From: Magnetospirillum aberrantis SpK
GTDB lineage: Bacteria > Pseudomonadota > Alphaproteobacteria > Rhodospirillales > Magnetospirillaceae
Assembly (NCBI RefSeq): GCF_011022235.1
Contig: NZ_JAAIYP010000009.1
Span: 1 to 59,086, forward strand
Reading direction: 5' to 3'
Length of the DNA: 59,086 nt
In this document: positions 24,115 through 28,478 of the stretch, piece by piece
How the letters are laid out: the number at the start of each line of letters is the position of its first letter
How positions within the stretch are numbered: position 1 is the first letter of the stretch
Position numbers and translations under genes: made by a program
The notes under the pieces: model-generated
Told to the model about the DNA's origin: nothing
The model's input: only the letters and a program-made list of their open reading frames with translations
Databases searched by the model: none

Positions 24115-24540
24115 ATGGACATTCGGCGACCCGCATGGCGGCGCATGCTGCTTCGTGCCCTGGTCCGGCGGCGAAAGCATCGCCGGCTGGTGGCGGCGGG
24201 GCTGGTCGCCTGCGGCCTGGGGGGGCGTCTGAGCATCGTCGGCAACCGCCTGATGGTGAACAAGGGGGGAGTGTTCGGGGTGCTGGCCACCATGCTGGGG
24301 TTCGAGGGCGCGTTCATGGAACGCGCGTTGCGCATCAGCCAGATCTCGGCCATCGAGATCGACAAGCCGGCGTTGTTCCTGCGTTACATGCGCATCACCT
24401 ATCCCGGCGCCCCGCACCAGAGCGGCAACAACCTGCACGACATGATGGCCGAGAACGCCATCTTGATGAGTCTGTTCGACAACCGGCCGTTCTATCGCGT
24501 CATGGCCCGCATCGAAGCCCTTATGGACGCCGACGACTGA
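24115..24540 (+). CDS. Unknown protein, possible PH-like domain, first gene of the MlaFE-fusion cluster
   Basis: 141 residues, ATG after TATAGGTCGGCC. A very basic N-terminus (RRPAWRRM..RALVRRRKHRR) is followed by a short hydrophobic stretch. Then comes a strand-rich segment (GRLSIVGNRLMVNKGG...ISQISAIEIDKPALFLRYMRITYPG) that resembles bacterial PH-like domains in its layout. It ends in helices. I recognise no family with certainty. The basic N-terminus could bind anionic lipid headgroups. It is 31 bases upstream of the next gene and divergent from ilvA, so it probably opens the operon. Confidence 0.72.
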   Translation: MDIRRPAWRRMLLRALVRRRKHRRLVAAGLVACGLGGRLSIVGNRLMVNKGGVFGVLATMLGFEGAFMERALRISQISAIEIDKPALFLRYMRITYPGAPHQSGNNLHDMMAENAILMSLFDNRPFYRVMARIEALMDADD

Positions 24541-24571
24541 CGCGGTCGAACCTTTTCGCAGGAGCGCATTC

Positions 24572-25858: not shown

Positions 25859-26985
25859 TGTCTTCCGCTCCGGCGTTCGCTGCGTTCAAGGCCTGGGCCA
25901 GAACCAAGGCGGCGATCCGCCTGACCAGCCTGGGGTTGGTGGGGTTGGCGGTCGCGGCCGGGGCGTCGGTCTGGCCCAAGCTGTCCCCGCCCGAGGATTC
26001 CGTCGCCATGGCGCCGGCCTTCGACCGTTCCTGGAGCTTTCCGCAATCGTCGCCGGCCTTCACGCTGGACGAACAGCTGTTTTCCCACCAATGCGGGCGC
26101 TTGCTGTCCGGGGACGATGGCCGGCTGTTGCTGGCGCCCTATGCCGAACCGTCCTGTCAGGCGGCGGCGGCCGAGGCGACGGCGGTGGTCTATGGCGCCG
26201 ACATCCGCCTGTTGTGGGCGCTGTTGACCGAGGCCGAACGGGGCGAGATTTCCGCGACCTTCCGCGAGACGGCGTTCTGGCTGCGCCATTCCCTGCAATC
26301 GTCCATGACCGAACCGTTCTTCGAACGCGAGTATCGCCCGCTGATCAGCGAGATCCTGCGTTCGGCCATGGAGCGGACGTTGCAGCGTCCCGCGGTGCGC
26401 GAGGCGTTGCAAAAGGGCGTCGCTTCGGTCGATCCTCAGGTACTTGACGCGGTCATCGACGGCATCGTGCCGGTGGCGATGGAAAAGATCGAGGCCAATT
26501 TGTGGGGCAATCTCAAGGCTTTGGCCGGCGGGTTGTTCGGCGGTTCCGATCGGTCCTCGACCTTGGGCCAGGTGATGGTCGAGGTGGCCGCCGACCCCAG
26601 GGTGCGTGACCACCTGCATGCCACGCTGCCGCGCTTGATGGCCAGTCCCGGATTGGCCGACGCCGCCGTTCTGGCGGCTTCCGAATTCGTCGGCGTGCTG
26701 GTCGAGGACCCGCGTGTCGGACAATTGGTGCAACGGCTGATGACCGATCGCCGGATCGCCGTTGCCGGCGGGCTGGGACGCGCCGCCATGCCCCAGGGCT
26801 TGCCGCGCAAGCTGCTCAAGCTGCGCACCCCCGCCGACCACAACCCGCTGTCGGCCTATGTGGTGCGCTTGGTCATGCATGGGCGCTCCGGCAACGTGGT
26901 GTTGCTGTTGCGTCCCGAACAATACGCCCGATTGTCGCCCCAGGCCGGTCCGGGCGTCGTGCTTAGCCGGATCGGCACGCCATGA
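25858..26985 (+). CDS. Second membrane-anchored protein of unknown family, coupled to the MlaFE fusion
   Basis: 375 residues, ATG overlapping the previous stop; a TTG one codon earlier is possible. One N-terminal membrane helix (about 22-40) and an otherwise periplasmic, helix-rich chain. Repeated short units of the type 'xDPRVxxxLxxxLxxLM' occur around residues 180-300, suggesting a helical repeat scaffold. A final segment (GRSGNVVLLLRPEQYARL) may form a strand. No known family. The stop overlaps the ABC gene start (ATGA), strongly implying a complex with that transporter. Confidence 0.85.
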   Translation: MSSAPAFAAFKAWARTKAAIRLTSLGLVGLAVAAGASVWPKLSPPEDSVAMAPAFDRSWSFPQSSPAFTLDEQLFSHQCGRLLSGDDGRLLLAPYAEPSCQAAAAEATAVVYGADIRLLWALLTEAERGEISATFRETAFWLRHSLQSSMTEPFFEREYRPLISEILRSAMERTLQRPAVREALQKGVASVDPQVLDAVIDGIVPVAMEKIEANLWGNLKALAGGLFGGSDRSSTLGQVMVEVAADPRVRDHLHATLPRLMASPGLADAAVLAASEFVGVLVEDPRVGQLVQRLMTDRRIAVAGGLGRAAMPQGLPRKLLKLRTPADHNPLSAYVVRLVMHGRSGNVVLLLRPEQYARLSPQAGPGVVLSRIGTP

Positions 26986-28478
26986 ACGCCGCCCACATGA
27001 TCACCGTCGCCAACCTGTCCATCACCACGCCGACCGGCCGGGTCCTGGTCCGGGACGCCAATTTCGGCCTGTCTCCCGGCGAGGTCGTGGTGCTGGTCGG
27101 CCCTAGCGGGTCGGGAAAGTCATCGATCATCAATGCCCTGTCGGGCCTGTTGATGGCCGACGACGCCCATTGGACCCTGGCCGGGCAGGTGCACCTTGCC
27201 GGCCGCGACTACGACCTGTCGCGGGAACCGTGCAACATCGGCGGGCTGGTGTTCCAGAACAACGCCCTGTTCGACGATCTTTCGGCCGGCGCCAACGCCC
27301 GCATCACCGCCGACCACACCGGCAAGGTCGATCCGATGCTGGTGGACCTGATCGCGCAATTGCTGCACGACGTCGATCCCAACCTGCCGGTGTCGTCGTG
27401 CAGCGGCGGCCAGCGCCAGCGCATCGCCATCGCCCGCACCTTGCTGGCCAACCGCGACGTGCTGTTGTTCGACGAACCCAATTCCGGGCTGGACAAGGTG
27501 GCGGCCCGCCGGCTGGTGCAGTTGATTCGCCAGATGTGCCACCAGATGGGCAAGCCGGCGCTGATCGTCGCCCACCATGTGGACGACCTGTTGCCGCTGG
27601 CCGACCGGGTGTTCTATCTGGATTCCACCCGTCGCCGTCTGCGCGAATTGCCGCCGGACGCCGCCGCCTTGGACGCCGCCCTTGTGGGCGAGAGTTCGGC
27701 CGCGGCCGAGGACGGCGGCGGCGAACCGGTCGCCGCGTCCCAGGCATGGCGGATCAAGCCGCGCACCCGCTGGCGCTGGATGCTGCATTATTTGGCTGAA
27801 TATTTCTGGATATTGTGCGCCTCGCCCCTGCTGCTGGGCTATGTGATGCTGGGCGCCGGCATCGTCGGTTTCGTGTCGGTGTGGTTCGGTTTCAACTATG
27901 ACGCGCTGGGCGACTTCGTCCGTTCCATCGTTCACGACGACGCCTTGATGGGGATTGGCTTCATCGAGATGACGGTGGTTATCCCGCTCATCGCCAGCCT
28001 GTTGATGGTGGCGTGCAACAACGCGGTGGTCACCGCCGACCTGGGCAACCGGGTGCTGTCGTCGCAATTCCGGGCCATGAGCAACCTGGGCATTCCCGCC
28101 CGCCGTTACATCTATGTGGCGGTGGCGGTCAACATGGCCCTTGCCGGGCTGTTGCTGACCGTTCTGTCCGAGGTGGTCGCCAGCTTCGCCTCGTACCAGA
28201 CGTGGCGCCTGATTTTCGCCGGACAGCCGTTCGAGTTGTGGATGGAGAACTTCTATCGAGAGTTTCTTCGCAACCATCATACGTTGTGGATACATGGGGG
28301 CTGGACGTTGTTCAAGGTCATAGCCACCTCAACCGTTGCGACGGTGACGGCGCTGCTGATCGGCGCGCGCCGTAAAGAATCCGTCATTTCCATCAACCAT
28401 GCCATCGCCCGTTCCATTGTGATCGGGGCTTCGGCAACTTTAACGATTCATGCCCTGGTAGCCGTGTTGCAATTCTAG
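26982..28478 (+). CDS. Fused ABC ATPase-permease of the MlaF-MlaE (lipid transport) type
   Basis: 498 residues. The N-terminal ~240 residues are an ABC ATPase: Walker A GPSGSGKS (40-47), signature CSGGQ (140-144), Walker B LLFDEP (Asp164, Glu165), and a His switch in 'LIVAHHVDDL'. From about 262 the chain is an MlaE-like permease. It has an interfacial helix (WMLHYLAEYFWIL), hydrophobic helices, and the family's core 'EMTVVIPLIASLLMVACNNA...LGNRVLSSQFRAMSNLGI' region split across helices. In known Mla, Let and plant TGD systems these are separate proteins working with an MCE protein; none is encoded here. It probably moves phospholipid or another lipid at the inner membrane. Confidence 0.85.
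   Translation: MNAAHMITVANLSITTPTGRVLVRDANFGLSPGEVVVLVGPSGSGKSSIINALSGLLMADDAHWTLAGQVHLAGRDYDLSREPCNIGGLVFQNNALFDDLSAGANARITADHTGKVDPMLVDLIAQLLHDVDPNLPVSSCSGGQRQRIAIARTLLANRDVLLFDEPNSGLDKVAARRLVQLIRQMCHQMGKPALIVAHHVDDLLPLADRVFYLDSTRRRLRELPPDAAALDAALVGESSAAAEDGGGEPVAASQAWRIKPRTRWRWMLHYLAEYFWILCASPLLLGYVMLGAGIVGFVSVWFGFNYDALGDFVRSIVHDDALMGIGFIEMTVVIPLIASLLMVACNNAVVTADLGNRVLSSQFRAMSNLGIPARRYIYVAVAVNMALAGLLLTVLSEVVASFASYQTWRLIFAGQPFELWMENFYREFLRNHHTLWIHGGWTLFKVIATSTVATVTALLIGARRKESVISINHAIARSIVIGASATLTIHALVAVLQF

Follow-up and report, generated by a model that had tools for sequence, protein, structure and literature searches.

A contig of 59,086 nucleotides from Magnetospirillum aberrantis SpK (GCF_011022235.1, NZ_JAAIYP010000009.1), the whole of which is called the window here, encodes a single protein that joins an ABC ATPase to an MlaE-type permease (the fusion), two anchored proteins, b and c, whose genes lie directly upstream of it, and a larger, variable set of genes downstream (Table 1). 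The fusion carries the ABC motifs, is paired with c and is linked to genes for MlaA, mitofilin-like and DUF6524 proteins; matches to the MCE, STAS and MlaC families are absent from the cluster proteins scanned. We give about an even chance to the reading that these genes specify an accessory route for phospholipid between the inner and outer membranes, Mla-like and without MCE, in which c (plus b) would serve in the periplasm and MlaA would be the outer-membrane partner. A sequence-only reading of the same stretch had proposed the fusion and its two anchored neighbours as a candidate new lipid transporter; that idea gains strength for c and loses it for b, and it now takes in MlaA and other cluster genes; the system is, to judge by its genes, a variant of Mla-type transport whose function we infer.

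Open reading frame (ORF) calls and Pfam searches bore out the 498-residue fusion, as well as the overlaps that had been described on either side of c. The ATPase half matches Pfam ABC_tran at 1.1e-23 (residues 24-167), and the permease half matches MlaE (PF02405) at 8e-9 (residues 326-495; 35.8 bits, with a cut-off of 22.5), a cut-off that the fusion passes in all but one of 15 genomes or records, the exception (G333) being clipped at a contig end. When a profile of eight permease halves was searched against PDB sequences, Mce1 YrbE was the best match (4.4e-5) and MlaE-type permeases came next (0.013-0.17). The 22 aligned fusions all contain Walker A, the SGGQ signature, Walker B including its catalytic Glu and the H-loop His; in the window protein Walker B reads DEPN. 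Hence the fusion is, by its sequence relationships, an ABC transporter of the MlaE superfamily. Its ATPase half is not notably near MlaF, equal scores being reached by many ABC ATPases. At least one canonical MlaE gene is encoded besides the fusion in each of the 14 whole genomes checked, which argues that the fusion is an extra system. Participation in anti-phage defence was considered and set aside: PADLOC, to which ten proteins were submitted, matched the fusion alone, with the best stretches within the ATPase half.

The near-constant companion of the fusion is c, which lies immediately upstream in 21 of the 22 distinct loci with upstream sequence, a count that omits G333 and G403 (contig ends) and G812, G820, G831, G833, G838 and G873, and in which the plasmid record L045 stands for G819. 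The two genes overlap by 4 bases (ATGA), an arrangement kept in all six junctions inspected (the window, L015, L023, L024, L025 and L045); b and c overlap by 1 base, and a gap of 31 bases without overlap separates a from b. Of the translational coupling suggested earlier, what is observed is the overlap of these genes. An independent search for c in 385 genomes sampled from the class (taken as the same draw in the searches for the permease, DUF6524 and c) gave matches in at least four, all fusion-bearing, and missed the c of G432, which is visible at its locus. Genome presence counts, here and below, are lower bounds, because only part of the first-look candidates was scored in many genomes (for the host in the c search, for example, 5 of 24). 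Because c is so nearly constant a neighbour, homologues of the fusion cannot be said to occur routinely without it. The standing of b as a constant part, on the other hand, did not survive, its direct orthologues being confined to 4 of the 22 loci (the window, L014, L015 and L016) despite a recurring family of b-like proteins. Members of that family are the window protein at 35235-36206 and proteins in L038, L071 and L076, and hhalign relates b to them with 94% probability (E 1.4e-7, 135 columns).

Neither b nor c is assigned to a known family. Each has one N-terminal hydrophobic segment, which barely exceeds the Kyte-Doolittle threshold of 1.6, and neither matches a Pfam or NCBIfam family above cut-off, in agreement with the earlier description; 11 members of the c family, compared with Pfam, gave single-member matches only, at E 0.003 or worse. 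Profile comparisons found b and c unrelated to one another, and c unrelated to the b-like family. An MCE identity for either protein is unsupported by Pfam, hhalign and PDB sequence searches, the fold tests being limited by weak models, and placing them outside the MCE family, as had been supposed, is upheld to that extent. The profile comparison with an MCE alignment (seven MCE-domain rows), made with hhalign, returned a probability below 1% for both, with modest power, because the control, the fusion permease against canonical MlaE, reached E 3.9e-4 and a probability of only 35%. The AlphaFold2 model of c (predicted local distance difference test, pLDDT, 74.6; predicted template modelling score, pTM, 0.49) comprises a helix at 17-37, strands between 49 and 113, helices over 116-340 and two strands near the C-terminus, and a Foldseek search with it against the PDB gave no match that reached E 0.001. 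That of b is of low confidence (pLDDT 60) and mostly helical, and likewise had no PDB match at that level. We regard as helical background the best Foldseek match of b (9mg8, 3.7e-3), the PDB sequence matches of c (8eoz, 0.0023; 4o8w, 0.014) and those between b and designed proteins (0.021 and worse).

The statement that no MCE protein is present here is true of the cluster, but a PqiB with three MCE domains is encoded in the window, in a pqi locus (52646-56354, with a PqiC-like protein and two PqiA-domain ORFs) about 25 kb from the fusion, and the host genome contains additional MCE and MlaE genes. MCE domains were found in 14 of the 15 genomes or records, comprising all 14 whole genomes; the plasmid record had none. 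Since every whole genome thus encodes MCE proteins, one of them could serve the fusion from elsewhere, and the most serious rival explanation, which we consider unlikely, is that the fusion is a lipid transporter working with such a protein (MlaD-like or PqiB), b and c being regulators or assembly factors. It draws on the proximity of pqi genes, both in the window and in Terasakiella sp. PR1 (L014), where about 3.5 kb separate the fusion from a convergent pqiABC. The latter is the sole case of an MCE gene within 10 kb; the other 14 of the 15 genomes or records (several on short contigs) showed none at that distance, and there was none anywhere on the 724-kb plasmid of Azospirillum sp. B510 that carries the cluster. 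Many MCE genes, moreover, adjoin a partner of their own, be it a canonical MlaE within about 2 kb, as in several genomes, or PqiA beside PqiB.

The preference for an Mla-like system without MCE draws on the genes that surround the core. The gene set given by the sequence-only reading was real in its core and incomplete in extent, relatives of window genes as far as 36206 recurring near the fusion, as located in distant carriers by hidden Markov models (HMMs) built from window genes; a survey of these neighbourhoods found c near-constant and the MlaA, mitofilin-like and DUF6524 genes recurrent, in variable order. All 30 fusion genomes have MlaA; its distance from the fusion is no more than 6 kb in 12 of them and no more than 16 kb in 15, which come from five families. 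DUF6524 is found in all seven fusion genomes of the class sample and in 14 of the 378 others (hypergeometric 4.9e-10, kinship ignored), and it is near the fusion on the same contig in four of the seven. The protein at 28556-29422 matches the C-terminal region of Mitofilin in Pfam (2.1e-7, 30.7 bits, with a cut-off of 27.4); of eight aligned family members, six have a match at E 0.01 (for one of the six it falls short of the cut-off), and mitofilin-like HMM matches occur in 16 of 24 fusion stretches (the 22 loci plus L037 and L040). MlaE permeases move phospholipid, and MlaA is an outer-membrane phospholipid protein. With an MlaE transporter joined to MlaA in one cluster, movement of phospholipid between the membranes is therefore the most likely function.

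As we picture it, two polypeptides of the fusion would form a homodimer and so bring together the two ATPases and the two MlaE-type permease halves. Held in the inner membrane by its one helix and seated on the permease, c would receive or deliver lipid in the periplasm, replacing MlaD/MlaC, a role for which it is the best candidate because it is the only near-constant partner and has a predicted inner-membrane anchor and periplasmic domain. b or the b-like proteins would assist c, MlaA would handle phospholipid at the outer membrane, and the mitofilin-domain protein, to go by its family and linkage, may hold or shape the membrane there. A bolder version envisages a mobile, MCE-independent machine for lipid transport between the membranes, in which phospholipid would travel from the MlaFE fusion through a c of new fold to MlaA, at contact sites organised by mitofilin-domain proteins; we regard it as rather improbable.

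Several points weigh against the favoured reading, beyond the weakness of the hhalign control and the availability of MCE proteins elsewhere in the genomes. Lipid is a presumed substrate, just as the direction of transport and the formation of a complex are presumed. The absence of a fold match for c is weak evidence, given the pTM of its model and its strand-rich part: seven strands of at least three residues are predicted, which equals the strand number of an MCE barrel, and this small part may be a distant MCE relative. One locus, that of Achromatium (L026), has the fusion without c. In half of the 30 genomes (15, some of them with short contigs) no MlaA lies within 16 kb of the fusion. Mitofilin scores are low (26.9 bits for the plasmid protein, under the cut-off that the window protein narrowly exceeds), and eight of the 24 stretches, some of them short, lack a mitofilin-like match (L024, L025, L026, L039, L041, L082, L083 and L085). 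The order and content of the cluster differ widely among lineages, and the idea of a strict unit is further opposed by several DUF6524 genes with no other cluster gene adjoining and by G234 (L076), in which a, 33020-type, h, b-like, mitofilin-like and DUF6524 genes stand together and no fusion was found.

FtsEX works with a periplasmic partner, and by analogy the fusion might spend ATP on moving c, which would then act upon the wall or envelope with no carriage of lipid. The predicted anchor of c, its largely helical model and its near-constancy would suit such mechanotransmission, as would an ATPase half that scores no nearer to MlaF than to many other ABC ATPases. We judge it very unlikely all the same, in that the permease is of the MlaE/YrbE family, MlaA recurs nearby, and no wall-enzyme family exceeds its cut-off in b or c. 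Intracellular carbonate formers are known in Azospirillaceae, Chromatiaceae and Achromatium (PMC11773610). The hosts of the fusion include Terasakiella sp. PR1, Thiobaca trueperi and Candidatus Achromatium palustre, and the window cluster holds a mitofilin-domain protein and a PmtA-like enzyme, so that a system for making or provisioning internal membranes (those of magnetosomes or photosynthesis, or vesicles enclosing sulfur or carbonate) might be envisaged. This last alternative is scarcely probable, and the magnetosome or carbonate link was down-weighted, because the fusion occurs also in many genomes of genus g69 (G819 among them), a group in which we know of no such internal structures, and because a search of the host genus detected it in none of the other 12 genomes.

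A true Mla system consists of homologues of MlaD, MlaE, MlaC and MlaA, with MlaE beside an MlaF-like ABC subunit (PMC7790496); by this definition the cluster has MlaE and MlaA and, as scanned, falls short in the remaining components. It shares with the MlaFEDB-MlaC-MlaA system of Escherichia coli an MlaE-family permease, an ABC ATPase and, in the window, MlaA. It differs in that ATPase and permease are fused in one ORF, in place of a separate MlaF beside MlaE, and in that b and c adjoin the transporter. Pfam scans of the window cluster proteins detected no MlaD-type single-MCE protein with the transporter, and Pfam and NCBIfam scans of cluster proteins detected no member of the MlaC or STAS (MlaB-like) families, for neither of which was a genome-wide search made. 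Mpc of Brucella abortus is a variant Mla-type system of rearranged domains whose ABC transporter is homologous to MlaFE, and it comprises a separate MpcF, a STAS-bearing MpcE, a long MCE protein, MpcD, and a PqiC-like MpcA (PMC12436622); as these parts are given in the accessible text, none has a counterpart in the fusion cluster. Mpc is, on that partial account, the nearest described variant found, yet it too uses an MCE protein. Open-access literature, screened by title and the start of the abstract, yielded no MlaF-MlaE fusion without MCE and no Mla system with mitofilin genes, and no open-access paper on DUF6524 was found.

The permease family is shared with Mce1/YrbE of mycobacteria, the source of the top PDB sequence match, and with TGD of plants, but both of these use MCE proteins and none is encoded with the transporter here. 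PqiABC and LetAB carry out MCE-based inter-membrane transport, to our knowledge with no ABC transporter, and the pqi locus of the window is separate from the fusion cluster. Mitofilin/Mic60 shares its C-terminal region with the protein at 28556-29422, but the latter is short, near the cut-off and encoded in a transporter cluster. All MlaE/YrbE-type transporters known to us use MCE proteins. A conserved MlaE transporter with a near-constant partner that is not an MCE protein would, if confirmed, make the permease independent of the MCE ring and furnish a natural test of what that ring is for. Because the fusion is recurrently linked to MlaA and mitofilin-like genes, a bacterial connection of lipid transport to contact-site proteins can be put directly to the test, and an MCE-independent contact-site machine, if real, would be a bacterial counterpart of the way in which mitochondria tie lipid transport to Mic60 contact sites.

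The distribution of the fusion is patchy. Relatives of its permease half occur in 30 genomes, the host included, a total based on that half: alignments of the ATPase half cover 22 of them, part of it is visible in G403, G333 shows the permease end only, and G812, G820, G831, G833, G838 and G873 are known as long open frames. Four of 55 genomes of the host family carry the permease half (host counted) and none of 12 others of the host genus; it was found in 7 of 385 genomes of the class sample and in 2 of 398 of the phylum sample, the host being one of these. The family of G104, with 17 of 82 genomes, is taken as Azospirillaceae because the match coordinates of its member G819 equal those of the Azospirillum sp. 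B510 plasmid, and genus g69 has it in 16 of 45; the family of Thiobaca has it in 2 of 146 (a subset of a larger group), namely Thiobaca and Achromatium. A plasmid collection contributed one carrier record, the Azospirillum sp. B510 plasmid, and a single collection scan accounts for Terasakiella sp. PR1, Thiobaca trueperi and Candidatus Achromatium palustre as well as the metagenome-assembled genomes (MAGs) nJC1bin3 and nN3bin14, a marine alphaproteobacterial MAG and a Pseudomonadota MAG. A maximum-likelihood tree of 22 fusions pairs Thiobaca with the Pseudomonadota MAG (support 100/100) and joins this pair to the marine alphaproteobacterial MAG at 88/97, below the mark for strong support set by the tool; the two lineages of the host family are without a supported grouping. 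Such a topology fits horizontal transfer, of which it falls short of proof.

Table 1. Features of the fusion cluster in the window (aa, amino acids; letters are those used in the text)
Feature	Coordinates	Strand	Remarks
a	24115-24540	+	141 aa; outside known families, no Pfam family over cut-off
b	24572-25858	+	GTG start; 428 aa; one N-terminal hydrophobic segment
c	25858-26985	+	375 aa; start ATG 25858, alternative TTG 25855
Fusion, ABC ATPase and MlaE permease	26982-28478	+	Single ORF, 498 aa
Mitofilin-domain protein	28556-29422	+	288 aa; hydrophobic segment 73-91, weaker 148-166
PmtA-like methyltransferase	29502-30212	+	NF045882 1.9e-58, 197.6 bits, cut-off 390
h, membrane protein	30222-30815	+	197 aa; 4 hydrophobic segments; 10 aligned rows including window
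Small protein	30825-31424	-	Two hydrophobic segments; one clear relative, L071 (E 4e-20)
MlaA family protein	31357-32544	+	Pfam PF04333 3.6e-43; start uncertain, possibly further in
DUF6524 protein	32554-32976	+	Pfam 5e-38; 4 hydrophobic segments
147-aa protein family	33020-33463	-	Without Pfam family; present in several other clusters
PBP-superfamily-like protein	33542-34651	+	PF12849 26.7 bits, just below cut-off 27
198-aa protein	34642-35238	+	N-terminal hydrophobic segment
b-like protein	35235-36206	+	323 aa; GTG start 35235

The remaining members of the cluster recur in differing combinations. Eight aligned rows of a, the window included, represent the host family as well as genomes further removed. 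The methyltransferase, resembling the phospholipid N-methyltransferase PmtA and related to it at a score under the equivalog cut-off, has HMM relatives near the fusion in L014 and immediately after it in L024 and L025. A relative of the PBP-like protein in L035 exceeds the family cut-off (7.2e-27), and at L035:5972-7549 a PBP-like domain is followed in one ORF by a 34642-type match (weak, E 4.8e-4), which hints that the 33542 and 34642 proteins may act together. The marine MAG (L044 and L035) encodes in a single stretch, on mixed strands, mitofilin-like, 33020-type, MlaA, DUF6524, mitofilin-like, h, mitofilin-like, 34642-type, PBP-like, DUF6524 and PBP-like proteins, then a, c and the fusion; on the plasmid of Azospirillum sp. 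B510 the genes run 33020-type, h, two DUF6524, c, fusion, mitofilin-like and MlaA.

Some further genes were encountered in or beside these clusters. The host genome has a second, partial set at L078:7783-12342, a stretch without the fusion, consisting of DUF6524, PBP-like, 34642-type and mitofilin-like ORFs, the last at 25.0 bits and below the Pfam cut-off, and the Terasakiella locus (L014) has an additional, longer mitofilin-like ORF at 17147-18478. Beside the plasmid cluster, L045:10045-13416 encodes 1123 amino acids with periplasmic binding, mechanosensitive-channel and cyclic-nucleotide-binding domains. Proteins that look alike by eye are encoded one on each side of that cluster (L045:3348-4388 and 21340-22428), the second with a weak match, below cut-off, to a neurotransmitter-gated channel ligand domain (E 0.0057). 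Just past the cluster in the window, at 36402-38787, a gene for an MBOAT O-acyltransferase adjoins a gene without a Pfam family.

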